Shown here: positions 6,601-33,058 of the stretch, piece after piece
How the letters are laid out: each line of letters begins with the position of its first letter
Position numbering within the stretch: position 1 is the first letter of the stretch
DNA from: Deltaproteobacteria bacterium
GTDB lineage: Bacteria; Myxococcota_A; UBA796; SXON01
Reading direction: 5' to 3'
DNA: 33,058 bases
Assembly: GCA_016875435.1 (NCBI GenBank)
Contig: VGRE01000013.1
Span: forward strand, 1-33,058
Program-made: the position numbers and the translations under genes
The notes under the pieces: model-generated
The model's input: the letters and a program-made list of their open reading frames with translations, nothing else
Told to the model about the DNA's origin: nothing
Databases searched by the model: none

Positions 6601-6952
6601 GGAAGAAGGTGGTCTGCAAGCGCTCGCGCACGTCTTGCATGCCGGCGCCCATCGGCGTGTCCCAGTCGAACTCCAGCACCACGTCGGAGATCCCCGCGCG
6701 GCTGCGCGACTCGATGGAGACGACGCCCTCCACGGTGGAGAGCGCCTCCTCGATCGGCCGGCTCACCTGGGTTTCCACCTCTTCGGGCGCCGCGCCCTCG
6801 TACTCGGTGCGCACCGTGATGGTCGGATAGGAAATATCCGGCATCAAATCCAGTGGTAGCTGGACCAGCGACACGTAGCCGAACACGACGACGGCCACGG
6901 TACACATCCACACGGCCACCGGGTGGTTGACCACCCACCGGTAAAACGTCAC
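3653..6952 (-). CDS. RND efflux permease, first of a tandem pair, with extra segment between TM6 and TM7
   Basis: 1099 residues from a GTG start placed 3 bases after the stop of the adaptor gene. N-terminal text (NHPVAVWM, LPLDLMPDISYPTITVRTEY) is classic for HAE1-like RND pumps. The TM4 motif reads VIDSGTVVLEA (D406, S407) and the TM10 motif GVVVANAIVLVD (A999, N1000), so both the second Asp and the Lys of the AcrB proton relay are absent. About 100 extra residues at roughly 497-600, rich in Trp, Arg and Leu, lie between TM6 and TM7 and could form amphipathic or additional membrane helices. This accounts for the length above the usual 1020-1050. It probably pairs with the overlapping downstream RND protein, with the adaptor upstream and TolC at the end of the operon. 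Substrate unknown. Confidence 0.93.
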   Translation of the reverse strand: MTFYRWVVNHPVAVWMCTVAVVVFGYVSLVQLPLDLMPDISYPTITVRTEYEGAAPEEVETQVSRPIEEALSTVEGVVSIESRSRAGISDVVLEFDWDTPMGAGMQDVRERLQTTFFPDGVPRPLILRYDPSLSPILRVALTGEMGELALRDAAEKDVKRRLEALDGVAAVTVRGGLERLVLVEAREDWLAARGVTLDQLRATLQAENVNVAGGLVREGENEYLIRTLNEFRSVDDVRELRVVRPDGARVRVGDVAEVREGSADREVVARLGGAPAVEIEVYKEADANLVQVARRVKGALEPPQAMPGEQAVTSVLPEGVSAEVLDDQARFVEAALDNLVGDAWLGGLLAILVTFVFLRDWVTTLIISTAIPICLFATFGVMYVGELSLNLMSLGGLALGVSMVIDSGTVVLEAVQTHIDRGKSRLEAAVLGTAEVAQAVFASVLTGIAVFFPIVFVEGVAGQIFGDLALTVVFSLLASLGVALLFVPMLAARTIALPSPPARARDIAGSSPRAAWQELAQRRRSWLWPWALARFLVHGSLAALANLFAVASGWTLRLGFRALAWSLGLFNRATVWLADRFLVFYAASESLFARVLLGSLRRPGRVLLVATATFLASVLLLDRVGAELIPDVHQGRFTVEVALPVGTPLERTDGLVQQLEAEVRGIGGIETVYAVVGTERRADSKADEGENTARLLVELSPGGDLEQREALTIEAIRGVLDGFPGFTARFVRPALFSFHTPVELVLFGQDLRTLREAADRGAAAMQELPALAEVRSSLGAGYPEVRVVYDRDRLAALGIGVGDVARAVRAKVQGERPTRIAEGERRVDLLVRLGEADRDSLDALAAINVNPRILPPVRLDAVATLADGEGPSEVRRIDQRRAVVLSADIRGLDLAGASNAAAAAVTGTSLPKGVDLEVAGQNRELDTSLGSLKLALALAIFLVYVIMASTFESLRDPLVILFSVPLSLVGVAVGLWITGNAVSVVVFIGLIVLAGVVVANAIVLVDAISRLRLDGLALDEAIGKAAATRLRPILITALNSVLGLAPLALGLGEGQEMQRPLAITIIFGLASSTFLTLVVVPVVYRIAARLTERVPETTP

Positions 6953-6955
6953 GGC

Positions 6956-8188
6956 TTACCCGCCCTCTCTGCGCCCGGGCTCCTTCCCTTCCTCGGCCTT
7001 GGCCATCACCGGGTCGCTCGGCAGGCGCACGCGAGCATCGTCGCGCAGGGCCTGGTTGCCCACCGTCACCACCTGCTCGCCGGCCGCGACGCCCTCGACG
7101 ATCTCGGCATTGACCCCGTCTTCGAAGCCAAGCTTCACCCGCACGCGGTGGGCGCGACGGTAGGGGCCGGGCACCTCGGGCTCCTCCTCCTCTTCCTCGT
7201 CGCCGCCAAAGTTGAAGGACCAGCCAGCTTCTTCTTCCTCCTCCTCTTGCTCCTCCTCGGGCTTCTCGCCCGGCGGGGGACCTTCGAGCAGCGTGTAGAC
7301 GTAGGACTGGCCTTCCTCCCAGACCACCGCGCGCCGGGGGACGGTGAGCACGCCCTCGTGGCGCGCCACCTCGACGCGCACCGACACGTACTGCCCCGGC
7401 CGCAGGACCGCCTGCCCCGGGTCGAGGGCCACCGTCACCCGCACCGTGCCCGTCTGCGTGTCGACCACCGGCGCCACGCGCACCACCTCGCCCGAGGCGC
7501 CCACCGCCTCGTCGTAGGCACTGACGACGGTGGCCGGCTGGCCCACGCGCACCCGCGCGAGGTCGCGCTCGGGCAGGGCCACCACCACCCGCAACTTGCC
7601 CGGGTCGACGATGGTGTAGGCCGGCGTGGGCCCCGCCGTTTCCCCGAAGCGGATGCCGCGGGCGGCCACCACGCCGTCGATAGGGCTCTCCAGTCGCGTG
7701 AATCCGCGCGTCTGGCTCGCCTCCTGGTGGGCGGTGCGGGCGGCCGCGAGCGCCCGCTGCGCCGTCTCCAGCTCGGTGCGCGCGATGGCGCCCTGCGCGA
7801 AGAGGCGCTCGGCGGCCTCGGCGTCGGCGGTGGCGCGCTCGAGCTCGGCGGTGGCGCGCTCGTAGGCGGCGTCGAGCTGGGGGGAGGCGATCACCGCGAG
7901 GAGCTGTCCCTTGCGCACATCGTCGCCCTCCTCCGCGTAGATACCGGTCACGACACCCGTCGTCTCCGGGACGAGCGCGGCCTGCGCCTCGGACTCCACC
8001 GCCGCGCTCGCGACGACATGGTCGCCCACCGTCCCTGGCGCCACGGCCGCGACATCAACCAGGGTGCGCGGGTCGACCGGGGGGCCCTTGCCTTCCTCGT
8101 CCTCGCCTTCTCCCTCCTCGCCGCCCTCGCCAGCCGACATGCTGCAGGCGAGCGAGAAGCCGGCGATGAGGGCCAGGACGAGACGCAT
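6956..8188 (-). CDS. RND periplasmic adaptor (membrane fusion) lipoprotein
   Basis: 410 residues, first gene of the efflux operon. The N-terminus MRLVLALIAGFSLAC gives a lipobox with Cys15, followed by an acidic linker (about 17-34). The first lipoyl half is TGVVTGIYAEEGDDVRKGQLL (about 78-98). An alpha-helical hairpin follows at about 100-160, then the second lipoyl half with LESPIDGVVAARGIRFGE, and beta-barrel and membrane-proximal domains. Family role: joins the RND permease to the TolC duct. Unusual: an insertion at about 303-341 made largely of Glu, with a central WSFNFGG, inside the membrane-proximal domain. It may bind cations or act as a flexible spacer; this is speculation. A TAGCCT element lies 9 nt before the ATG and no Shine-Dalgarno is seen. 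Confidence 0.92.
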   Translation of the reverse strand: MRLVLALIAGFSLACSMSAGEGGEEGEGEDEEGKGPPVDPRTLVDVAAVAPGTVGDHVVASAAVESEAQAALVPETTGVVTGIYAEEGDDVRKGQLLAVIASPQLDAAYERATAELERATADAEAAERLFAQGAIARTELETAQRALAAARTAHQEASQTRGFTRLESPIDGVVAARGIRFGETAGPTPAYTIVDPGKLRVVVALPERDLARVRVGQPATVVSAYDEAVGASGEVVRVAPVVDTQTGTVRVTVALDPGQAVLRPGQYVSVRVEVARHEGVLTVPRRAVVWEEGQSYVYTLLEGPPPGEKPEEEQEEEEEEAGWSFNFGGDEEEEEEPEVPGPYRRAHRVRVKLGFEDGVNAEIVEGVAAGEQVVTVGNQALRDDARVRLPSDPVMAKAEEGKEPGRREGG

Positions 8189-8197
8189 GGCGCGCTG

Positions 8198-8203
8198 AGG
8201 CTA
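8198..8203 (-). promoter_or_regulatory. candidate -10 element of the efflux operon
   Basis: TAGCCT on the minus strand lies 9 nt before the ATG of the adaptor gene. It fits the TAnnnT pattern that recurs before other first genes in this window. No convincing -35 is visible. Confidence 0.3.
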
Positions 8204-8385
8204 ATCGCGCCGCCGGGGCATCGCCGAGGGGTGACGAGGTTTGACAGGGGGTTGGCGGGCCGCACCCGGTCGCGGTGCTCACGCGGGCGACGCCATCGAC
8301 ATCGACGACGACAGCGACAGCGACGACTGCGAACCCTCGCGTCGCCTCCTGCGTGCCGCCCGGGGCCGCGCGCGCTGCCGACGAG
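8204..8385. other. intergenic stretch with no supported gene
   Basis: Between the efflux operon start and the decayed pair at 8386. It holds a short Asp/Ser/Thr-coding low-complexity stretch (about 8292-8330, GAC/AGC repeats) and a TTGACA-like hexamer at 8239-8244 on the plus strand without a matching -10. I see no gene. It may be further decayed sequence belonging to the remnants downstream. Confidence 0.4.
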
Positions 8386-8496
8386 GTGGATGGCTCGCTG
8401 GTTGCCTGGGCGCGGTCGCTCACGCCTCGCGAGCGCCTGGACCGAGCGACAGCCACGGGCACCTGGCCGGCGAGGGTTCGCCGTGCCGCGACCTGA
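8386..8496 (+). pseudogene. remnant of a small partner protein preceding a nucleotidyltransferase
   Basis: From GTG at 8386 the frame encodes 36 residues with WARSLTPRERLDRATATG and ends at TGA 8494-8496, overlapping by 14 nt the start of the nucleotidyltransferase remnant. Short proteins containing an L-T/S-P-x-E-R-L-type helix commonly precede stand-alone nucleotidyltransferase-fold genes in bacteria; that comparison is from memory. Here the protein is very short and its N-terminal part may be lost. It may be only a chance frame, but its phase and overlap with the next remnant favour a decayed bicistron. Confidence 0.35.
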
Positions 8497-8787
8497 CCAG
8501 GTCGACATCGGCGCGCTGCTTGGCCGGCTAGGCGAGCGCGGAATCGACTTCGTGGTGGTGGGTGGCGCGGCGGCTTTGCTCCACGCCGCACCCATCGCGA
8601 CGCGCGACCTCGACATCGTCCCCGATGCCCGGCCGGGAGCCCGGGAACACCTCGATGGCGGTGGGCAGCTCCTGCTGCGAACTCGCCTGTGTCCGCTCGA
8701 CGTGCTGCTCCGCCTCCACGGCGGGCCCGCGACCTGGTCGCGGTGCCCCTGCTCCTGCAAGCGCTTCGGCAGCGCGACCCCACCTGA
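8483..8787 (+). pseudogene. decayed nucleotidyltransferase-fold protein (internal deletion and frameshift)
   Basis: From GTG at 8483 the frame reads VDIGALLGRLGERGIDFVVVGG, then A-rich text and TRDLDIVPD. This is the signature of MNT/AbiEii-like nucleotidyltransferases: a GG loop followed by a DxD-type metal site. About 35 residues expected after DLDIVPD appear to be missing, because the text jumps at once to LLLRTRLCPLDVLLRLHGG, which looks like the later part of the domain. After about 8722 the expected C-terminus continues in another frame: bases 8725-8787 encode ARDLVAVPLLLQALRQRDPT and a stop. So there is at least one deletion plus a frameshift. No function is expected. It lies between two intact transcription units. 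Confidence 0.7.
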
Positions 8788-8838
8788 GTTGTCCCCCACC
8801 TCGCCGGGTCGGCCGGTCAACCGAGGCGGAGACTCCCC

Positions 8839-9657
8839 ATGAGCCTGTTCCTGCTCGCCTGCACCGCCGACCCGAGCACCGAAGACGCGGCGACGCTCGC
8901 GGAGTGCACCGCCACCGTGGCCGACGACGTGCCCGCCTTCTTCGCCACCTACTTCGCCTGCACCGACATCTCGATGGAAGGCGACAACGTGGTGCTCGCG
9001 ACGGACTCGCTGCCGCCGTATGCCACCTACTACTACGGCGCCGACCACGAGATGTACGCGGAATGGGACGATCAAGGCGGCGAGACCTCGCCGAACCCCA
9101 GCACGATCGAGGCACTCACGGTGCGCGTGGTCGTCCCGGCCGATCCGGTGGCCAGGGGCCTCGACATCACCGCTGCGCGGGTCGACCACCAGATGGGCAC
9201 CAGCGACGAGGAGTACGTGGCCGGCTCGGTCGGCGTGGCGCCCGACAGCGTGGCCAACTTCAACGCCACCGCCGCGCCGGGCGACGACATCTTCGAGGAA
9301 GAACTCACCTTCGACGAGTGGGACGCCCACCCCACGCCGAACGGCGAGTACCACCACCACGGTGCGAACCGGGGCGCCCTGGCCGCGCTCGACTTCCTCG
9401 GGGTCGATGCCACTGTCTTCGGCGTGATGTGCGACGGCACCGTACTCCTCGGTTGCGACGAACTCGATGGGAGCGCGGTCGACATCGACACGCTCGACGC
9501 GCAGGACGGTCACGTGGGCGACATCGTCGACCTCGACGGGACGGTCCACTTCAGCGGGCGCTACCACGCGCACGTCTGCGCGCATTACAACGGCTTCGGG
9601 CTGTACCCCGAGATCCAGTATTACGACGACTGTGACTCGGCACCTGCCGTGCCGTGA
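8839..9657 (+). CDS. YHYH-domain-like predicted lipoprotein
   Basis: 272 residues. The ATG is preceded by GGAG at 8828-8831 (7 nt spacing). The leader is only MSLFLLAC, with the lipobox Cys at residue 8. The C-terminal half contains NGEYHHHG, AALDFLGVDATVFGVMCDG and a later GRYHAHVC, the arrangement of YHYH-family secreted proteins, although the signature itself reads YHHH here. The histidines and acidic residues suggest a metal site (inference). Several Cys pairs could form disulfides outside the cytoplasm. Function of the family is not established. The next gene starts 49 bp downstream on the same strand. Confidence 0.75.
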   Translation: MSLFLLACTADPSTEDAATLAECTATVADDVPAFFATYFACTDISMEGDNVVLATDSLPPYATYYYGADHEMYAEWDDQGGETSPNPSTIEALTVRVVVPADPVARGLDITAARVDHQMGTSDEEYVAGSVGVAPDSVANFNATAAPGDDIFEEELTFDEWDAHPTPNGEYHHHGANRGALAALDFLGVDATVFGVMCDGTVLLGCDELDGSAVDIDTLDAQDGHVGDIVDLDGTVHFSGRYHAHVCAHYNGFGLYPEIQYYDDCDSAPAVP

Positions 9658-24269: not shown

Positions 24270-25636
24270 TCCTCGGGCTGCTGGCCTGCGAGCCCGGTCC
24301 GCCCGACTCGGCCGCGCCGGTATCGACGCCCTCGTGTGACAGCTTGCTGCCCATCGTCGACGAGCCGGTGGAGGGCCTGCGCTTCGACGGCGACGCGCCG
24401 CAGTCCTTGCTCCTCGTCGTCAACGACACCTTCCGTCACGACGTGGTCCAGTTCTATGGCGGCGACCGGGTGACGATGCCCTGCCTCCAGTCGCGCGCCG
24501 ACCACGTGGTGCGCTTCGACAACGCCTATGCCACCGGGAACTGGACCGGCATCACCACCGCCTCGATCCTCACCGGACTCTTCCCCGAGCACCACGGGCT
24601 CTTGCGAGTAGACAGCCAGTCCGGCGCACCGGAGATCGACGTTCCGGTCACGGCGCCGACCTTTGCCGGGCATTTCGCCAGCCTCGGGCACAGCACCCTG
24701 CAGGTGTCGGGCAACGGCTGGATCTCCGAGGAGTCCGGCCTGATGGCCGGCTTCGAGAGCGTGAAGGCCAACCCGGGCGAGGAAGGACAGACCGACGCGT
24801 CCGACATCGCGCCCGAGGTGCGGGCCTGGCTCAACGCCCTCGCTGCCGACAAGCCCTTCTTCATCCACTTCCAACCGGTCGACAACCACGACCCCTACCT
24901 GCCGCTCTCCCAGTACGCCGACCGTTTCATCGACACGGCCGACTACCCGTGGCCGCCGACACGCGACGGGCAACGCGAGTTGACCACCGCCTACCCGGAC
25001 ATGAGCGAGGCGGACAAGGCGCTGGCGCGCGAGTGGTTCGCGGGCCTGTACGCGGCGGAGACGCTCGCGGTCGATGCCGAGGTGGAGGCCACGCTGGCCA
25101 CGCTGGCCACCAGGGGACGGCTCGACGACACGCTGCTCATCGTGATGGGCGACCACGGCGAGGCGCTCGACGACGACCGCACCGACTACTTTGGGCATGG
25201 CTCGTCCCTGCGCGAGGAACTGGTGCACGTGCCGTTGCTGGCCTACCACCCCCGACTGCAGCCCGGCGCCGTGGCCGGGATCGTCCGCGGGATCGACGTG
25301 TTGCCCACCGCGCTCGCGGCGATGGGGCTCCCCGCGCTCGACGGCGTGGACGGCGCGGCCGGCGGCGCCTCGATGGCCTACGGCGGGTGGTGGCGCAACG
25401 ACGACGAGCCCCTGCGCACCGAGGCGGTGTACGCGGTGTCCGGGCGGGTGAAGCTGGTCCGCAGTTGCGCCGGCGGCGAGTCGGCCTACGACCTCGAGGC
25501 CGACCCCGCCGAGATGGCGCCGGTGAGCGATCTCTCGCAGCTCGCCGGCGCGGTCGAGCTCGGCGCGGCCCTCGACGCCCAGGTGGAGGCCCTCCAGTCG
25601 GGGACGAGCCGCCTCGATGCCTGCCTGGCGCGTTAG
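24266..25636 (+). CDS. alkaline-phosphatase-superfamily (sulfatase-like) lipoprotein
   Basis: 456 residues from GTG 24266 overlapping the previous stop. The leader is only M-I-L-G-L-L-A-C (Cys8), followed by a Pro/Asp-rich linker. Metal-site text: VVNDTFRHD (D54) and VMGDHGEALD (D296, H297), with FGHGSS (H311) further on. At the nucleophile position sulfatases have C/S-x-P-S-R; here it is T94-G-I-T-T-A-S-I-L-T-G. No formylglycine can form, and Thr94 is the candidate nucleophile as in LtaS-type phosphoglycerol transferases. So phosphatase, phosphodiesterase or phosphotransferase activity is more likely than sulfatase. Acts in the envelope. 8 bp to the next lipoprotein gene. Confidence 0.85.
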   Translation: MILGLLACEPGPPDSAAPVSTPSCDSLLPIVDEPVEGLRFDGDAPQSLLLVVNDTFRHDVVQFYGGDRVTMPCLQSRADHVVRFDNAYATGNWTGITTASILTGLFPEHHGLLRVDSQSGAPEIDVPVTAPTFAGHFASLGHSTLQVSGNGWISEESGLMAGFESVKANPGEEGQTDASDIAPEVRAWLNALAADKPFFIHFQPVDNHDPYLPLSQYADRFIDTADYPWPPTRDGQRELTTAYPDMSEADKALAREWFAGLYAAETLAVDAEVEATLATLATRGRLDDTLLIVMGDHGEALDDDRTDYFGHGSSLREELVHVPLLAYHPRLQPGAVAGIVRGIDVLPTALAAMGLPALDGVDGAAGGASMAYGGWWRNDDEPLRTEAVYAVSGRVKLVRSCAGGESAYDLEADPAEMAPVSDLSQLAGAVELGAALDAQVEALQSGTSRLDACLAR

Positions 25637-25644
25637 CGGCGAGC

Positions 25645-26526
25645 ATGCTCCTGCTACTCGCCTGTGCTGCCCCCGAGGACGACGAGTTCGCCGCCGAGAA
25701 CACCGACTCGGCCGAGGTCGTCGACGAGGGGCCGCCCCCGGCCGACCTGGCCGACCCCTCCGCCGGGAGCTGCCCGAGCTTCGACGAGCCCGGGCAGGTG
25801 AAGTTCACCAGCGCCGATCTGGAGCGCAAGGCGCGGATCTTCTACCCCGAGGATCGCCCTGCCAACATGCCGGTGCTCTTCGTGTGGCACCCGCTCGGCG
25901 CCAACGCGCGCAGCATGGTTAGCTGGCTGGAGATCGACAGCTTCGCCGAGGAGAACGGGATCATCGCCGTGGTGCCCGACGCCGACGACAGCATGCCCTT
26001 CGAGTGGGGCTTCACCGGCAACGCCAGCGTCGACCTCGCCCTCTACGACGACCTGCGCACTTGCCTCGTGCAGGAACTGGGCGCCGACGTGCGCCGCGTG
26101 TACAGCGTGGGCATGAGCGCCGGCGCCTTGTGGACCACCTACCTGGGCATTCACCGGGGCGACACGCTGGCGTCGATCGCCACCTGGTCGGGCGGCACCG
26201 GCGACCTGGTGCCCTACTCGACGCCTGCCTACGCCTTCCCCGCGCTCCTGGTGTTCGGCGGCGACGACGACACCTACAACGCCGGTGGCTACGTGGTGGA
26301 GTTCCACGAGCTGACCCTCGAATTCGCCGACCAGCTCGCGGGCGACGGCCACTTCGTCGACCTGTGCGAGCACGACCTCGGTCACTACTTCCCGCCCGAC
26401 CCCCAGGCGACGATCAGCGACTTCCTCATGGTGCAGCGTTACGGACAGCCCTCGCCGATCACGGAGGACAACCTCCCCGACCTGTCGATGGATTGCCAGG
26501 TGGTGACCGGCGGCGTCAGCGACTGA
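25645..26526 (+). CDS. esterase lipoprotein, PHB-depolymerase/feruloyl-esterase-like alpha/beta hydrolase
   Basis: 293 residues from ATG 25645. Leader M-L-L-L-L-A-C (Cys7), then a very acidic linker to about residue 40. Hydrolase text: VLFVWHPLGANARSM (oxyanion region), VGMSAGALWTTYLG with nucleophile S158, FGGDDDTY (probable acid) and HDLGHYFP with H247. This layout is that of the LpqC / polyhydroxybutyrate depolymerase-like esterases, which cleave ester bonds in polymers or feruloyl sugars outside the cell. The acidic linker probably lifts the domain off the membrane. Follows the sulfatase-like gene closely, so likely one operon. Confidence 0.85.
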   Translation: MLLLLACAAPEDDEFAAENTDSAEVVDEGPPPADLADPSAGSCPSFDEPGQVKFTSADLERKARIFYPEDRPANMPVLFVWHPLGANARSMVSWLEIDSFAEENGIIAVVPDADDSMPFEWGFTGNASVDLALYDDLRTCLVQELGADVRRVYSVGMSAGALWTTYLGIHRGDTLASIATWSGGTGDLVPYSTPAYAFPALLVFGGDDDTYNAGGYVVEFHELTLEFADQLAGDGHFVDLCEHDLGHYFPPDPQATISDFLMVQRYGQPSPITEDNLPDLSMDCQVVTGGVSD

Positions 26527-26640
26527 GCGCCCGCGCCACCCCCAAGCCGAGCCCGCCCACTCGGTAGTTCGTGCCGCCCGGGTAGTCGCCGTGCCGGGCA
26601 CGAGGTCGGCGGCGGCGCAGGCAAAGACGGTCAGCCCGGG

Positions 26641-26646
26641 TAGATT
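26641..26646 (+). promoter_or_regulatory. candidate -10 element before the PAF-acetylhydrolase-like gene
   Basis: TAGATT (within GGGTAGATT) ends 7 nt before ATG 26654, in a 127-bp gap that otherwise holds no supported gene. There is no Shine-Dalgarno. Confidence 0.4.
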
Positions 26647-26653
26647 CTGCGCC

Positions 26654-27709
26654 ATGCTCCTCCTCGCCTGCACCACGCCTCCCGACGACGACGCGGCGGC
26701 GGCCCCGTCTACCTACGCCGTGGGCCACGTGGAGGCCGAGGTGAGCTACACCGACCCCGAGGGGAACCCGCGCGCGCTGCGCACCGCCGCGTGGTACCCC
26801 GCCAGCGGCGAGGGAAACGGCCCCGCGCAGTACCTCTACGGCACCATCGAGAGCGAGGGAGCCAGCGAGAGCGCTCCCGCCGCCGAGGGCGAGTTCCCGG
26901 TGGTGGCCTTCTCCCACGGGCACCAGGGTTTCGCGGAATTGTCGAGCTTCCTGATGGAACACCTGGCGTCGCGAGGCTTCGTCGTGCTCGCGCCCGACCA
27001 CGCCAACAACACGACCTTCGACGGCGGCGACCGGAGCACCGCCATCTACCTTCAGCGCCCCTTCGACCTCTCGGCGGTGATCGACGCCCAGGAGGCCGGG
27101 CTTTTTCCCGGCCTCCCCGCCACCACGGGACAGGTGGTGGCGATGGGTCACAGCTTTGGCGGGTACACGATTTTCGCCAGCGGCGGCGCCGCCTACGACA
27201 CCGGCGAGATCGAGGCCGCCTGCGAGGCCGGCACCGGCGGCAGCGTGTGCAGCGACTGGTCCGCGGACTGGGTCTCGCGATTTGATGCCGGTGGTCGCGA
27301 CGGCCGCGTGCTTGGCATCGTCGCGATGGCGCCGGGTAACTACTGGATGTTCGAGGACAACCTCCAGGGCCTCGCCGTCCCCACCCTGTTGATGACCGGC
27401 GCGGTCGACCCCGAGCGCGACGCCGACGGCGCGAGCTACTGGGCGGCGCTCTCGCCTCCGTTGTCGGAGACCAACGGCGCCTGCGGCGGCTGCGAGCACC
27501 ACTGGGTCGACATCGCCACCGCCGGCCACAACGCCTTCACCGACTTCTCGGGCAGCCTCGACGACGGCGGGACCATCGAGCCCGGGCGCGGCTGGGACAT
27601 CGTCAACGCCTATGCGCTGGCGCTTGCCCGGTTCGCGACGGGTGACGACCACGCCCTCGACGTGCTCCGCGGCGAGGCGGCTGTTGACGATCTCGCCACC
27701 GTCGAGTGA
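26654..27709 (+). CDS. PAF-acetylhydrolase-like alpha/beta hydrolase lipoprotein
   Basis: 351 residues from ATG 26654. The leader M-L-L-L-A-C puts the lipobox Cys at residue 6, the shortest in the window. The following text is TTPPDDDAAAAP. Hydrolase features: RTAAWYPASGEG near the N-terminus, FSHGHQGF (oxyanion region), FVVLAPDHANNT, GHSFGGYT with S167, MTGAVDPERD with D252 and TAGHNAFTDF with H292. This layout resembles bacterial homologues of platelet-activating-factor acetylhydrolase and dienelactone-hydrolase-like enzymes. Six cysteines after the lipobox may form disulfides. Substrate unknown; an ester or lipid in the envelope is plausible. Confidence 0.85.
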   Translation: MLLLACTTPPDDDAAAAPSTYAVGHVEAEVSYTDPEGNPRALRTAAWYPASGEGNGPAQYLYGTIESEGASESAPAAEGEFPVVAFSHGHQGFAELSSFLMEHLASRGFVVLAPDHANNTTFDGGDRSTAIYLQRPFDLSAVIDAQEAGLFPGLPATTGQVVAMGHSFGGYTIFASGGAAYDTGEIEAACEAGTGGSVCSDWSADWVSRFDAGGRDGRVLGIVAMAPGNYWMFEDNLQGLAVPTLLMTGAVDPERDADGASYWAALSPPLSETNGACGGCEHHWVDIATAGHNAFTDFSGSLDDGGTIEPGRGWDIVNAYALALARFATGDDHALDVLRGEAAVDDLATVE

Positions 27710-27721
27710 CCCCGGTCGCGG

Positions 27722-27727
27722 TACCAT
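27722..27727 (+). promoter_or_regulatory. candidate -10 element before the DUF1592 gene
   Basis: TACCAT, within GCGGTACCAT, ends 8 nt before GTG 27736. The alternative reading is that translation starts at GTG 27706, overlapping the previous stop, in which case this element lies inside the gene. Confidence 0.3.
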
Positions 27728-27735
27728 ACTCGGCC

Positions 27736-29340
27736 GTGCCGCTCGCCCTGCTGCTCCTCGCCTGCGACCCGGCGCCAGACCGCGCCGCGCCGGAGGCCGT
27801 CCGCGGCGAGGCCCCGGCCTTCACCGCCCAGCCGCCCGTCCTGCGCCGCCTCACCTACGCCCAGTACCAGTCCACCGTGGCCGCGCTCTTCGGCGAGGGG
27901 CTGGTCATCCCCGCCGAGCTCGAGCCCGACACCCGCGTGTCGGGGCTCTACGCGGTGGGCGCCTCGGTCACCTCGATCTCGTCGCTCGGAGTGGAACGCT
28001 ACGAAGCCGACGCCTTCGACATCGCCGAGCAGGTGCTGGCCGACGAGTCCCGTCGCTCGGCGCTCGTCCCCTGCACCCCGGCGAGCACGATCGACAGCGA
28101 CTGCGCCCGCGCCGTCCTCGCCGACCTCGGCCCGCGCGCGTGGCGCCGTCCCCTCGAGAGCGACGAGCTGGATCGACTCGTCGGCATCGCCGACACCGCC
28201 GCCGCCACGCTCGACGACTTCGACCAGGGCCTCGCCTACGCCCTCGCCGCGCTCTTGCAGTCGCCCCATTTCCTGTTCCGTCCCGAGCCGGGGGAGGACG
28301 ACCCGGAGCGCCCCGGCGAGCGCCGCTACACCGCCTACGAGATGGCTTCCCGGCTGTCGTATTTCTTGTGGAACACCATGCCCGATGCCGAGCTGTTCGC
28401 GGCGGCGGCCGATGGTTCCTTGCTCACCACCGAGGGGCTGGCCGCGCAGGTGGACCGCCTGCTCGCCGACGAGCGCGCCCGCGAGGGCATGGCGGCCTTC
28501 ATCACCGACACCTGGATGCTGAGCGACCTCGACGATCTCACGAAAGACCCGGCCATCTACACCTACATGAGCGACGGGCTCGGCGCCTCGGCCCGGCAAC
28601 AGACGCTCCTCGACGCCGAGGCCATCGTCTTCGACGACGACGGCGACTTCCGCTCGATCCTCACCACTCGCGCCACCCACCTCGACCGGACGCTGGCGGC
28701 GCTCTACGACGTGCCAGCGCCCGCCCGCGAGGGCTTCGGCGCCACCACCTTGCCCGAGAGCGGCGGTCGACGGGGACTGCTCGGCCAGGTGAGCTTCCTC
28801 GCCTTGCAGTCGCACGCCACCAGCACCAGTGTCACCCGGCGCGGCATCTTCGTGCGCGAGGTGTTGCTCTGCCAGGCCTTGCCCTCGCCCCCGGCGGGGC
28901 TCAACACCTCGATCCCCGAGACCACCGAGGAAACGCCCACCATGCGCGACCGCGTGGCCCAGCACCTCGAGGACCCGTCCTGCGCCGCCTGTCACAACTA
29001 CATGGACCCCATCGGGCTCGGCTTCGAGAACTTCGATGGCATCGGCCGCTGGCGAACGACCGAGAACGAGGTGGAGATCGACGCCAGCGGCGATCTCGAC
29101 GGCGTGGACTTCGACGATGCCTGGGCGCTGTCGGCGGCCATCGCCGATCACAGCGCCTTCGCCCCCTGTGTCAACAAGACGCTCTACGCCTACGCGCAGG
29201 GCCGGGTGGGGGGCGAGGGCGAGGACGACATCGTCGACTGGCACGCCGAGGGCTTCGCCGTGGAGGACTACCGCCTGAAGTTCCTGCTCCGCGACATCGC
29301 CACCGGGCAGGCCTTCCGGACGGCGGGGGTGGCGGAATGA
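27736..29340 (+). CDS. DUF1587/DUF1592/DUF1588/DUF1585 lipoprotein with CxxCH haem-c site
   Basis: 534 residues from GTG 27736 (leader M-P-L-A-L-L-L-L-A-C, Cys10). GTG 27706, overlapping the upstream stop, would add ten residues. Domain order by recognised text: DUF1587 (LRRLTYAQYQSTVAALFG, about 37-100), DUF1595 (about 118-180, AWRRPL.., LQSPHFLFRPE), DUF1592 (about 195-325, YEMASRLSYFLWNTMPD), DUF1588 (about 340-440, VTRRGIFVREVLLC.., DPSCAACHNYMDPIGLGFENFD) and DUF1585 (about 455-530). C416-A-A-C419-H420 is a c-type haem attachment site. These proteins are common in Planctomycetota and Myxococcota; molecular function is not established. The DUF1552 partner gene overlaps by ATGA. Confidence 0.9.
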   Translation: MPLALLLLACDPAPDRAAPEAVRGEAPAFTAQPPVLRRLTYAQYQSTVAALFGEGLVIPAELEPDTRVSGLYAVGASVTSISSLGVERYEADAFDIAEQVLADESRRSALVPCTPASTIDSDCARAVLADLGPRAWRRPLESDELDRLVGIADTAAATLDDFDQGLAYALAALLQSPHFLFRPEPGEDDPERPGERRYTAYEMASRLSYFLWNTMPDAELFAAAADGSLLTTEGLAAQVDRLLADERAREGMAAFITDTWMLSDLDDLTKDPAIYTYMSDGLGASARQQTLLDAEAIVFDDDGDFRSILTTRATHLDRTLAALYDVPAPAREGFGATTLPESGGRRGLLGQVSFLALQSHATSTSVTRRGIFVREVLLCQALPSPPAGLNTSIPETTEETPTMRDRVAQHLEDPSCAACHNYMDPIGLGFENFDGIGRWRTTENEVEIDASGDLDGVDFDDAWALSAAIADHSAFAPCVNKTLYAYAQGRVGGEGEDDIVDWHAEGFAVEDYRLKFLLRDIATGQAFRTAGVAE

Positions 29341-30671
29341 AACGGATCGCCATCCCGCGGCGCCGCTTCTTGCGGGGCTTCTTCCAGGGCTCGGCGGTGT
29401 TCGTGGGCCTGCCGCTCTTCGACTACCTGCTCGACGGCAACGGCGCCGCGCTCGCCTGCGGGGGCGCCATCCCGCGCCGCTTTGGCTTGTTCTTCTGGGG
29501 CAACGGCAACCGTCCCGACCAGTGGACGCCGGCCAGCGACGGCGCCGACTACGCGCTCACCGAGGAGTTGGCGCCGCTGGTCAACGTGAAGTCGAAGATC
29601 TGCGTGGTGTCGGGTCTCGCGGTGAAGGTCGACAATGTCGTCCCCCACCTGTCCGGCGCCGCCGGGCTGCTCAGCGGCTACGACCTCGTGTCGTCCGACG
29701 GCAACGACACCATGGGCGCCGCCACCATCGACCAGATCATCGCCGCCGAGATCGGCGCCGACACGCTCTACGCCTCGATCCAGACGGCGGCCACCAACTG
29801 CTCCGGCATGTCCTACAACGGCCCCAACTCGCGCAACCCCCCGGAGACCGACCCCTACACGCTGTACGAGAAGCTCTTCGGTCCCACCTTCCGCGAGCCC
29901 GGCGAGGAGGGCGTGGTCGACCCCACGCTCGGCCTGCGCCGCAGCGTGCTCGACAGCGTGATGGGCGACATCGCCACCCTGCAATCGAAGCTCGGCGCCG
30001 CCGACAAGGCGCGGCTCGACCAGCACCTCACCGGGGTGCGCGAGCTGGAGGAGCGCCTCGCCAAGCTCGAGGAAGACCCCCCCTCGCTGGAGAGCTGCGC
30101 GCGACCGGACAGCGAGCCCGAGGCCAGCTACCCCGACGAGGACGGCCGCCCCCAGATCAGCGCCCGCAGCCGGGCGATGGTCGACATGCTGGCGATGGCG
30201 ATGGCCTGCGATCAAACGCGGGTGTTCGGCCACTACCTCACCGACCCGGTGTCGAACCCGCTGTTTCCCGGGGCCTCGGCCGGCCACCACAACCTCACCC
30301 ACGACGAGCCGGGCGAGCAGCCCGAGGTGCACGCCATCACCGTGCAGATCATGGAGGAGTTCGCCTACCTGCTGGAGAAGTTCGACAGCATTCCCGAGGC
30401 CGACGGCACCTTGCTCGACAACTGCGCCATCCTCGGCACCACCGAGGTGTCGCTCGGGCAAACCCACGACATCACCGAGATCCCGGTGGTCATCGGCGGC
30501 AGCGCCTGCGGCACGATCCAGACCGGACTCCACTACCGCAGCTACACCGCCGACAATGCCTCGAAGCTGATGCTCACGCTGATGCGATCGATGGACATCC
30601 TCGCCACCGGCTTCGGCGACCCGGCGAGCGAGGCCTACTCCGAAGACAGCCTCACCGAGATCGAGGCCTGA
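29337..30671 (+). CDS. DUF1552 protein with Tat signal
   Basis: 444 residues; the ATG overlaps the stop of the DUF1592 gene. The N-terminus MKRIAIPRRRFLRGFFQGSA has a twin-arginine motif R8-R9-x-F-L (here RRRFLR), followed by a hydrophobic stretch and a likely cleavage near ALA-C. The body shows DUF1552 features: FGLFFWGNGNRPDQWTP, VSGLAVKV, HLSGAAGLLSGYD, DQIIAAEIGADTLYAS, RAMVDMLAMAMACDQTRV and a late ILGTTEVSLGQTHDITEIPVV. Tat export implies folding, perhaps with a metal cofactor, before transport. The DUF1501-like layout suggests an alkaline-phosphatase-like core (inference). It pairs with the upstream DUF1592 protein; function unknown. Confidence 0.9.
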   Translation: MKRIAIPRRRFLRGFFQGSAVFVGLPLFDYLLDGNGAALACGGAIPRRFGLFFWGNGNRPDQWTPASDGADYALTEELAPLVNVKSKICVVSGLAVKVDNVVPHLSGAAGLLSGYDLVSSDGNDTMGAATIDQIIAAEIGADTLYASIQTAATNCSGMSYNGPNSRNPPETDPYTLYEKLFGPTFREPGEEGVVDPTLGLRRSVLDSVMGDIATLQSKLGAADKARLDQHLTGVRELEERLAKLEEDPPSLESCARPDSEPEASYPDEDGRPQISARSRAMVDMLAMAMACDQTRVFGHYLTDPVSNPLFPGASAGHHNLTHDEPGEQPEVHAITVQIMEEFAYLLEKFDSIPEADGTLLDNCAILGTTEVSLGQTHDITEIPVVIGGSACGTIQTGLHYRSYTADNASKLMLTLMRSMDILATGFGDPASEAYSEDSLTEIEA

Positions 30672-31510
30672 TGTCCTGGCTGCTCCTGGCCTGCGCGGAG
30701 GCGCCCGACACCGGCGACGGCGGAACGTGCAGCAGCAGCGCCGACAGCGAGCTGGTGGTGGTGCGCACCATCGAACTGGTGATCGCCGACGACGCGGGCC
30801 TGAGCGAGGGTTTCAACCTCGACGGCGCGGTGTCGACGAGCGGCGGCTCGTCGGGTTGCGGGATCGGCGACTACGTGTCGCCCGGGGGCGTGGAGGGCAT
30901 CGACAACAACTTCTCGCGCCTGGTGCCCACGCTGGAAACCACCGAGGCCAAGGTCGAGACCATCGAGGGGCTCATCCAGTCGGCCATCGACAGCGGCGAG
31001 TTGCTCATCAGCTTCGAGCTTGGCGGTGTCGATAGCTGGGAGAACGACGAGTGCGTGAGCCTGAGCGTGGGGCAGGCCACCGGCGACGCGATGCTCGGGA
31101 CCGACGGGCTCCTGCTCGACGGCCAGACCTTCGACCCCGATCCCGGCGCGCCGGTGACGGAGGCCGACGACGGGAGGATCAGCGACGGCACCTTCACCAC
31201 CACCGGCGTGGCCACCGATATCCCCGCCCAGATCCTCAACGCCTACCTGACCTTGCCCATCAGGAGCGGCGCGGTCAGCATCACCCCGCAGGGCGACGAC
31301 CTCTACGCGGGCTTCCTCGGCGGCGGCGTGCCCACGAGCTACCTGCAGAGCGTGGCCGAGACCGAGAACGTCGACCCGGTGGTGGCGGAGCTGCTCGGCA
31401 CCGTGCTCAGCTACAACGCCGACCTCGACGACCCCGACGAGGGCGAGTGCAAGGCGCTGTCGATGACCCTCGCGTTCGATGCGGTGGGCGCCTACTGGTA
31501 CGCGGATTGA
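30671..31510 (+). CDS. lipoprotein companion of the DUF1592-DUF1552 pair, function unknown
   Basis: 279 residues; the ATG overlaps the DUF1552 stop (TGATG). Leader M-S-W-L-L-L-A-C (Cys8), then a short Asp/Gly linker. The body has a conserved-looking layout: FNLDGAVSTSGGSSGCGIGDYVSP (written here only as landmarks near residues 48-71), VEGIDNNFSRLVPTLE, LLISFELGGVDSW, then repeated beta-like stretches, DDLYAGFLGGGVP and a C-terminal ECKALSMTLAFDAVGAY. Cysteines are paired. I recall similar proteins next to DUF1552 genes in Myxococcota but cannot name a family. Probably part of the same envelope complex. Confidence 0.75.
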   Translation: MSWLLLACAEAPDTGDGGTCSSSADSELVVVRTIELVIADDAGLSEGFNLDGAVSTSGGSSGCGIGDYVSPGGVEGIDNNFSRLVPTLETTEAKVETIEGLIQSAIDSGELLISFELGGVDSWENDECVSLSVGQATGDAMLGTDGLLLDGQTFDPDPGAPVTEADDGRISDGTFTTTGVATDIPAQILNAYLTLPIRSGAVSITPQGDDLYAGFLGGGVPTSYLQSVAETENVDPVVAELLGTVLSYNADLDDPDEGECKALSMTLAFDAVGAYWYAD

Positions 31511-33058
31511 CGCCGCTTCTCGACGCGATTGTGACTCTGGAGTTGCCGGCTGGGCAGTCGCCGCCGGGGAGCCCGCGCGATCTCGACCGCTGGGTGGCGG
31601 CGGTGTCCGCCGTCCGGTCGCGCGCGCTCGATTGTATCCGACCGGTGGAGAACCGCCGTGACTACTACGCCAACCCCGTGCTCCACGTGGCCCTCGACGC
31701 CGCGTCGCTGGCCCGCGCGCGGGGGTGCGAGGGGGTGATCTCCATCGTGGAAAACCGGACGCTCCGCGTGAACGTGGCGCAGAGCGTGCCGCTGGTGGGG
31801 GCCGACGTCGCGCTGGGCAGCTACGGCGTGGACGGCGGCGGCACCGCCGTGGCGATCATCGACACTGGCGTGGACTACACCCACGCCGACGTGGGCGGCT
31901 GCCTGGGCGGCGCCTGCAAGGTGGCCTACGGCTACGACTTCGGCGACGACGACGGCGACCCCAGCGACTGCCACGGGCATGGCACCAACGTGGCCGCCAT
32001 CGCCGCCGGCAACAGCGGCGTGGCGCCCGGGGCCGACATCCTCGCCTACAAGGTGTTCGCCGACAGTGGCTGTTCCAGCACCACCGACGCGGTGATCGCC
32101 GCCGCGCTCGACGACGTGGTGCTCTACGCCAGCACCTACAACGTGGTTGCGGTCAACCTGTCGCTCGGCACCTATGACTACCGGACGTCGTCCACCTGCT
32201 CCGGCACTGGCACCGCCACCGAGACCGCCGTCAACACGGCGTGGTCGGCGGGACTCTTGCTCGTGGCCGCCGCCGGGAACGACGGCGACGAGGAGAGTGT
32301 CAGCTTCCCCGCCTGCCTGCGAAGGGTCATGGCGGTGGCCAACAGCTACGACGCGGCGGCAGGGTCGTCCAGCTACTGCACCGACTCGAGTTGCGCGAGC
32401 TACTGCACCGACGGCAGCCCGGGCGCCGACAGCCTCAACTGCTCGTCAAACGGCGGCAACCTCGTCGACCTCGCCGCCCCGGGCACCACCATCGTGGCCG
32501 GCGGGGAGACGATGGCCGGCACCTCGCAGGCCAGCCCCCACGTGGTCGGCGCCGCCGCGATCCTCGCCCAGCGCGTGCCCGGCGCCGAGCCGGGCAGCCT
32601 CGCCGACTGGCTGGTCCGGAGCGACAGCGTGGTTTCTGACACTCGTGGGGCCACCACCTACGACTACCCCCGGCTCGACTTGCCGACGATCCTCGCCGGC
32701 CACCCGGACGACCTGTCGGTGTCCGACCTCTACCTCGACGGCGACGGCATCATCGAGCGCGGCGAAGCCGAGGGCATCGTGGTCGAACTGGCCAACAGCG
32801 GGCCGGGCGACCTCGAAGACGTGAGCCTGGTCGTCACCAGCACCGACCCCGAGCTGGTGTTCGATGGCGCGGCCGCCGTCGCGGGCTCCGTCCCGAGCAA
32901 CGGCACGCTGCTGGTCTCGCCGGTCCCGTTCTCCGTGCTCGACACCTGCGCCGCCGATCACAACGCCGAGATCACCGTCGCCGTCACCGCCGACGGGCAG
33001 GTACAGGCGGAGACGGTGACCGTGGCGGTGTACTGCACGGAGGCGCCGGTGGACACCG
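31507..33058 (+). CDS. subtilisin-like serine protease (S8), C-terminus cut by window end
   Basis: 517 codons remain open at the window end, read from a TTG that overlaps the previous stop (TTGA). Residues about 7-95 look like an S8 propeptide (AIVTLELPAG.., VLHVALDAASLARARG, VISIVENRTLRV). Catalytic triad: D119 (VAIIDTGVDYTH), H158 (CHGHGTNVAA), S340 (MAGTSQASPHVVGAA), with oxyanion N258 (AAAGNDGD). A Cys-rich insert occupies about 290-312. After the catalytic domain, DLYLDGDGIIERGEAEGIVVEL starts a CARDB/immunoglobulin-like module. No signal peptide is encoded in frame before the propeptide: upstream in the same frame there is no ATG or GTG and no hydrophobic leader. Cys-rich content argues for an exported protein, so this is a puzzle. 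Confidence 0.88.
   Translation, partial: MTPLLDAIVTLELPAGQSPPGSPRDLDRWVAAVSAVRSRALDCIRPVENRRDYYANPVLHVALDAASLARARGCEGVISIVENRTLRVNVAQSVPLVGADVALGSYGVDGGGTAVAIIDTGVDYTHADVGGCLGGACKVAYGYDFGDDDGDPSDCHGHGTNVAAIAAGNSGVAPGADILAYKVFADSGCSSTTDAVIAAALDDVVLYASTYNVVAVNLSLGTYDYRTSSTCSGTGTATETAVNTAWSAGLLLVAAAGNDGDEESVSFPACLRRVMAVANSYDAAAGSSSYCTDSSCASYCTDGSPGADSLNCSSNGGNLVDLAAPGTTIVAGGETMAGTSQASPHVVGAAAILAQRVPGAEPGSLADWLVRSDSVVSDTRGATTYDYPRLDLPTILAGHPDDLSVSDLYLDGDGIIERGEAEGIVVELANSGPGDLEDVSLVVTSTDPELVFDGAAAVAGSVPSNGTLLVSPVPFSVLDTCAADHNAEITVAVTADGQVQAETVTVAVYCTEAPVDT

Follow-up and report, generated by a model that had tools for sequence, protein, structure and literature searches.

Related gene pairs in other bacteria

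In Planctomycetes and Verrucomicrobia, PSCyt3 genes usually adjoin one family of unknown genes (PMC5615132), which we infer to be DUF1552. A comparable arrangement is that of DUF1501 with DUF1800, where the DUF1501 protein is described as exported by the Tat pathway and paired with another unknown protein (PMC5122149). Planctomycetes, Verrucomicrobia and Myxococcota are rich in such gene pairs (DUF1592/DUF1552 and DUF1549/DUF1501), and the papers we found report a function for neither.

The window, by which we mean the whole stretch of 33,058 bases analysed here, carries a variant of the already known DUF1592-DUF1552 pair, to which a lipoprotein (LP) is added. The PSCyt3-type domain set is common to this locus and the PSCyt3/PSD-DUF1552 pair of Planctomycetes and Verrucomicrobia, whereas the Myxococcota subfamily adds LP and often an esterase, and its HxxSHH motif ends in D or N. 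The systems in which DUF1501 occurs with PSCyt2 or DUF1800 contain a full-length homologue of DUF1552 that is also described as Tat-exported and paired, but the partner families (PSCyt2, DUF1800) differ, and we know of no DUF1501 pair with LP. We put the probability at roughly 55% that the locus represents, in this lineage, an envelope module that is conserved in Myxococcota, consists of three core parts and acts by the mechanism proposed below.

Organization of the locus

Four open reading frames were verified at 27706-33058, at the coordinates given in a preliminary description of this DNA. The features used in the analysis are as follows.

26591..27709, + strand: upstream gene, alpha/beta-hydrolase (esterase-type) lipoprotein; likely start ATG at 26654; GHSFG at 27146-27160
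27706..29340, + strand: gene 1, mono-haem-site lipoprotein of the PSCyt3/PSD family; GTG start; lipobox LLLLAC at 27748-27765
28981..28995, + strand: CAACH c-type haem-attachment motif (residues 426-430), in gene 1
29337..30671, + strand: gene 2, Tat-exported DUF1552/HXXSHH protein with an alkaline phosphatase/sulfatase-like predicted fold
29643..29678, + strand: PHLSGAAGLLSG, with His104 ten residues before the final Gly, the superfamily-nucleophile spacing
30282..30308, + strand: GHHNLTHDE histidine cluster (His317, His318, His322); the family motif HxxSHH ends in Asp here
30671..31510, + strand: gene 3 (LP), lipoprotein whose family has no name; lipobox LLLAC at 30680-30694
31507..33058, + strand: gene 4, subtilase (Peptidase_S8); TTG start; incomplete at the contig end

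The overlaps that had been described between the four genes are all present (ATGA at 29337-29340, TGATG at 30669-30673 and TTGA at 31507-31510, each of 1-4 bases), and Pfam and NCBIfam searches agree with the gene types assigned earlier, namely a CxxCH lipoprotein, a Tat-exported DUF1552 protein, a lipoprotein of no known family and an S8 protease. The preliminary description did not mention the esterase lipoprotein directly upstream, the stop of which overlaps the start of gene 1 in GTGA at 27706-27709. The contig is exactly the 33,058-base window, so gene 4 is truncated by the contig end. DUF1552, LP and DUF1592 are present in one copy each in the genome. The order of genes 1-3 is kept in dozens of other genomes, therefore the arrangement is more than chance. 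A promoter and terminator scan at the locus gave signal at about the level of shuffled sequence. Further upstream, at about 25567-26526, lies a second lipoprotein with a hydrolase-like GMSAG motif and no Pfam match, which outside this window was observed solely in the closest relative (locus L033).

The haem-site lipoprotein

Gene 1 encodes the domain chain DUF1587-DUF1595-DUF1592-DUF1588-DUF1585, with all five domains over the Pfam cut-off, and with this full chain and the CxxCH haem motif it has the features that characterize PSCyt3/PSD proteins. All of the 95 distinct homologues of DUF1592 contain the motif, 94 of them as a single copy and the remaining one as two copies. Most of the homologues inspected also have a lipobox, and cytochrome c assembly genes were found in the genome. 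The c-type haem site proposed earlier for this protein is thus well conserved, and the gene 1 product would be a lipid-anchored mono-haem protein.

Linkage of LP with a DUF1552 subfamily

In a survey of the order (63 genomes), LP relatives were found at 73 places in 45 genomes. With a profile of the window's DUF1552 subfamily, strong matches (E below about 1e-160, the next match being 1e-127) were obtained at 57 places, and in 46 of these LP lies directly downstream on the same strand. Among the 44 genomes with this subfamily, 43 contain LP; in the single LP genome without a subfamily match, the end fragment of a DUF1552 gene precedes LP at a contig edge. Two further LP genes are divergent from DUF1592. 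About 18 of the 73 LP places are unlinked to DUF1552, so LP need not be co-transcribed with it; clustering of the reading frames around these unlinked genes did not yield a conserved neighbour, and most of them stand alone. A second genome collection gave a similar picture, with LP right after DUF1552 in 46 of 54 informative loci at gaps of 21-252 bases.

On the scale of the phylum (331 genomes), 123 genomes gave a strong LP match (E below 1e-20), and 122 of them contain DUF1552 as compared to 63 of the remaining 208; the p value of about 1e-41 is without correction for relatedness, and the co-occurrence is inflated by shared ancestry. On examining 40 DUF1552 loci of the order that were picked for having no adjacent LP, we found DUF1592 beside or near DUF1552 in all 40, while in most of them DUF1552 is distant from the window's subfamily. 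Therefore, LP tracks one subfamily and not the DUF1592-DUF1552 pair in general, the pair itself being nearly universal. These results bear out the earlier suggestion that the unnamed lipoprotein is a partner of DUF1552. The survey of DUF1552 neighbourhoods proposed at that time supports the conservation of LP downstream and does not support that of an S8 protease.

LP as a new lipoprotein family

No Pfam or NCBIfam match was obtained for LP over 61 members, and gene 3 thus founds a lipoprotein family new to both collections. The conserved residues are D51, C63, D67, D78, N79, D126, Q152, D251 and C260; those without any variation include Asp51, Asp67, Asp78 and Asp251 as well as Cys63 and Cys260, the last two of which likely form a disulfide. 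The AlphaFold model, built from the 61-sequence alignment, has a pLDDT of 93.3 and was unmatched against PDB and viral folds (best E about 0.1); sequence searches of PDB with single LP proteins and with LP profiles also gave no meaningful match. Tandem LP pairs follow DUF1552 in several genomes (loci L021, L023, L030 and L049). Weak LP relatives (loci L280-L287) occur in genomes without DUF1552, in contexts that appear unrelated on visual inspection of an approximate gene prediction, which suggests a wider Myxococcota lipoprotein superfamily.

Predicted fold and histidine centre of the DUF1552 protein

The gene 2 protein matches PF07586 with 217 bits (cut-off 30) and has the Tat motif PRRRFLRG. 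Its model (pLDDT 89.9) was searched with Foldseek, and the best match was steroid sulfatase (probability 1.00, E 2e-5, TM-score 0.39), followed by other sulfatases and alkaline phosphatase relatives at TM-scores of about 0.3-0.4. The model thus predicts the core fold of the alkaline phosphatase/sulfatase superfamily, the active site of which holds two metal ions. Such a metalloenzyme fold would suit the Tat-exported, possibly metal-containing partner that had been envisaged for the haem protein. At the level of profiles, DUF1552 aligns with DUF1501 over 358 columns (probability 98%, E 4.5e-15) and is thus its homologue over the full length; against sulfatase profiles only a weak C-terminal segment aligned, and a global alignment was not obtained. 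PDB sequence searches with single DUF1552 proteins and with profiles gave no meaningful match.

His104 is conserved in 100% of the DUF1552 proteins, ten residues ahead of the Gly in S/T-G, and the pattern H-x8-TG is also present in 10 of 11 DUF1501 sequences. The nucleophile of sulfatases and alkaline phosphatases sits at this spacing before the Gly. From this sequence pattern and the profile alignment, the invariant His104 apparently occupies the nucleophile position of the superfamily. It should be noted that this comparison of spacing leans mainly on DUF1501, since the CxPSR sulfatase signature was matched in just 1 of the relatives' sulfatase-type proteins. While DUF1552 has the predicted fold and C-terminal profile similarity in common with the superfamily, it differs by an HxxxH pattern and by His in place of the Ser/Thr/FGly nucleophile: neither the sulfatase signature nor an FGly cysteine/serine was found, nor Ser/Thr at the nucleophile position. 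On this ground we do not file it as a canonical superfamily member.

The literal HxxSHH motif is absent from gene 2, which reads HNLTHD. In the LP-linked subfamily the motif is HxLTH[DN] (T in 99%, the last position always D or N), as against other DUF1552 proteins, 42% of which have H at the last position. We assign gene 2 to a divergent DUF1552 subfamily by profile score rather than by motif. Across the LP-linked subfamily, His104, His317, His318, His322, His377 and Asn56 are conserved at 98-100%, and this histidine-rich centre probably binds metal.

The upstream esterase

The esterase scores over the cut-off for PF03403 and PF07224 (PAF-AH/chlorophyllase, Pfam), and all 15 members compared retain the Ser, Asp and His. 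In its Pfam matches and conserved triad it is like the PAF-acetylhydrolase/chlorophyllase alpha/beta hydrolases, from which it differs in being a lipoprotein family that recurs beside the cassette. On clustering the remaining neighbours of the cassettes, the esterase family stood out as the one clear repeat, with 19 loci as compared to 7 for the second-largest cluster. Within 39 cassettes with complete flanks, it lies at 72-279 bases in 14, upstream or downstream and always on the same strand (14 of 14), while most cassette loci are without it. The esterase family is also present beside one DUF1552 pair that lacks LP (locus L160).

Proposed module

That genes 1-3 make up one functional module is well supported by linkage and co-occurrence; a physical complex, its metal and haem content, its chemistry and its substrate are what we infer beyond this. 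In the proposed mechanism, the lipid-anchored PSCyt3/DUF1592 protein would carry one c-type haem, and the DUF1552 protein would be exported folded via Tat with its histidine-rich, probably metal-binding centre. LP would work with one DUF1552 subfamily, most likely either by tethering the DUF1552 protein, itself soluble, to the membrane beside the haem protein or by contributing to the substrate site of that protein. The secreted esterase lipoprotein accompanies them in about a third of the loci. The module most likely attacks an ester-bearing substrate that is extracellular or periplasmic, a substrate type for which the esterase and the DUF1552 fold are the sole hints. The esterase may cut carboxyl esters while the DUF1552 centre performs a metal-dependent step, with the haem carrying electrons or activating an oxidant. 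As the presumed nucleophile position is His, a standard phosphatase/sulfatase reaction is not assured.

A more specific version of this proposal is speculative and, in our estimate, rather unlikely: a hitherto unrecognized exported enzyme complex in which the alkaline-phosphatase fold with a His-rich metal centre performs redox or radical catalysis, with the c-type haem partner feeding it and a lipoprotein of new fold holding it. If this were true, DUF1501 and DUF1552 pairs, in Planctomycetes as well as in other phyla, would be relatives within one large enzyme system. LP offers a defined and testable partner for two long-unexplained protein families, and the subfamily-specific third partner, together with the DUF1552 fold, the candidate metal ligands and the recurrent esterase, makes direct experiments possible.

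Alternative explanations

The same observations could be read with DUF1552 as a non-catalytic protein, its alkaline-phosphatase fold being structural, in a set that builds or anchors a surface structure and in which the haem protein has a structural or sensory role. The invariant His replacing the expected Ser/Thr/Cys nucleophile agrees with this, as does the literature search, which found no catalytic function for DUF1501/DUF1552; yet the near-invariance of the five histidines and Asn56 across the LP-linked subfamily is what one would expect of a metal centre rather than of a decayed active site, and we regard this explanation as unlikely. Somewhat more improbable still is a sulfatase or phosphodiesterase module, in which DUF1552 would hydrolyse sulfate or phosphate esters of polysaccharides or lipids and the haem protein would serve electron transfer independently. 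Sulfatases are the best structural matches of DUF1552, the 4.8 Mb draft genome itself has 28 sulfatase-family (PF00884) matches, and the literature associates PSCyt genes with carbohydrate modules and with neighbouring sulfatase genes (PMC5615132). Against these stand the missing signature and FGly residue at the nucleophile position and the Foldseek TM-scores, which are merely 0.3-0.4. As for LP being an ordinary lipoprotein that is in the operon by chance or vertical inheritance only, its weak relatives in unrelated contexts and its unlinked copies would fit, but its linkage to DUF1552 and co-occurrence with it are stronger and more subfamily-specific than this explanation would allow. In the DUF1552 tree, moreover, the smallest clade holding every LP-positive gene has 60 LP-positive and 9 LP-negative members with no LP-positive gene elsewhere, node support being low, and we give this explanation hardly any credence.

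The remaining question for the three-part module concerns gene 4, which had been taken for a maturation factor of the other three products in a complex of four parts. It encodes a Peptidase_S8 domain (PF00082, 123 bits) with an intact Asp/His/Ser triad, and both the TTGA overlap in the window and the presence of S8 downstream in close relatives speak for such a role. However, the S8 gene is confined to the window's closest relatives, in several of which it is about 700 bases away from LP, and none of the other cassettes with readable downstream flanks contains it. On the neighbourhood survey we reject the S8 protease as a part of the conserved module; the subtilase is a lineage-restricted passenger and not a core component, and we hold the complex of four parts to be very improbable. 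The complete relatives of gene 4 (L142 at 6719-8731, L143 at 7485-9497, L033 and L144) have a MYXO-CTERM-like tail at the C-terminus. Tails of this type are typical of separate cell-surface proteins, which points to the subtilase being such a protein. The MYXO-CTERM tag is sorted by myxosortase (PMC11980579). The tail consists of a Cys-Gly-rich motif followed by a hydrophobic stretch and then Arg; the MYXO-CTERM profile gave 17.3 bits on one relative (cut-off 20), and the motif is visible in others.
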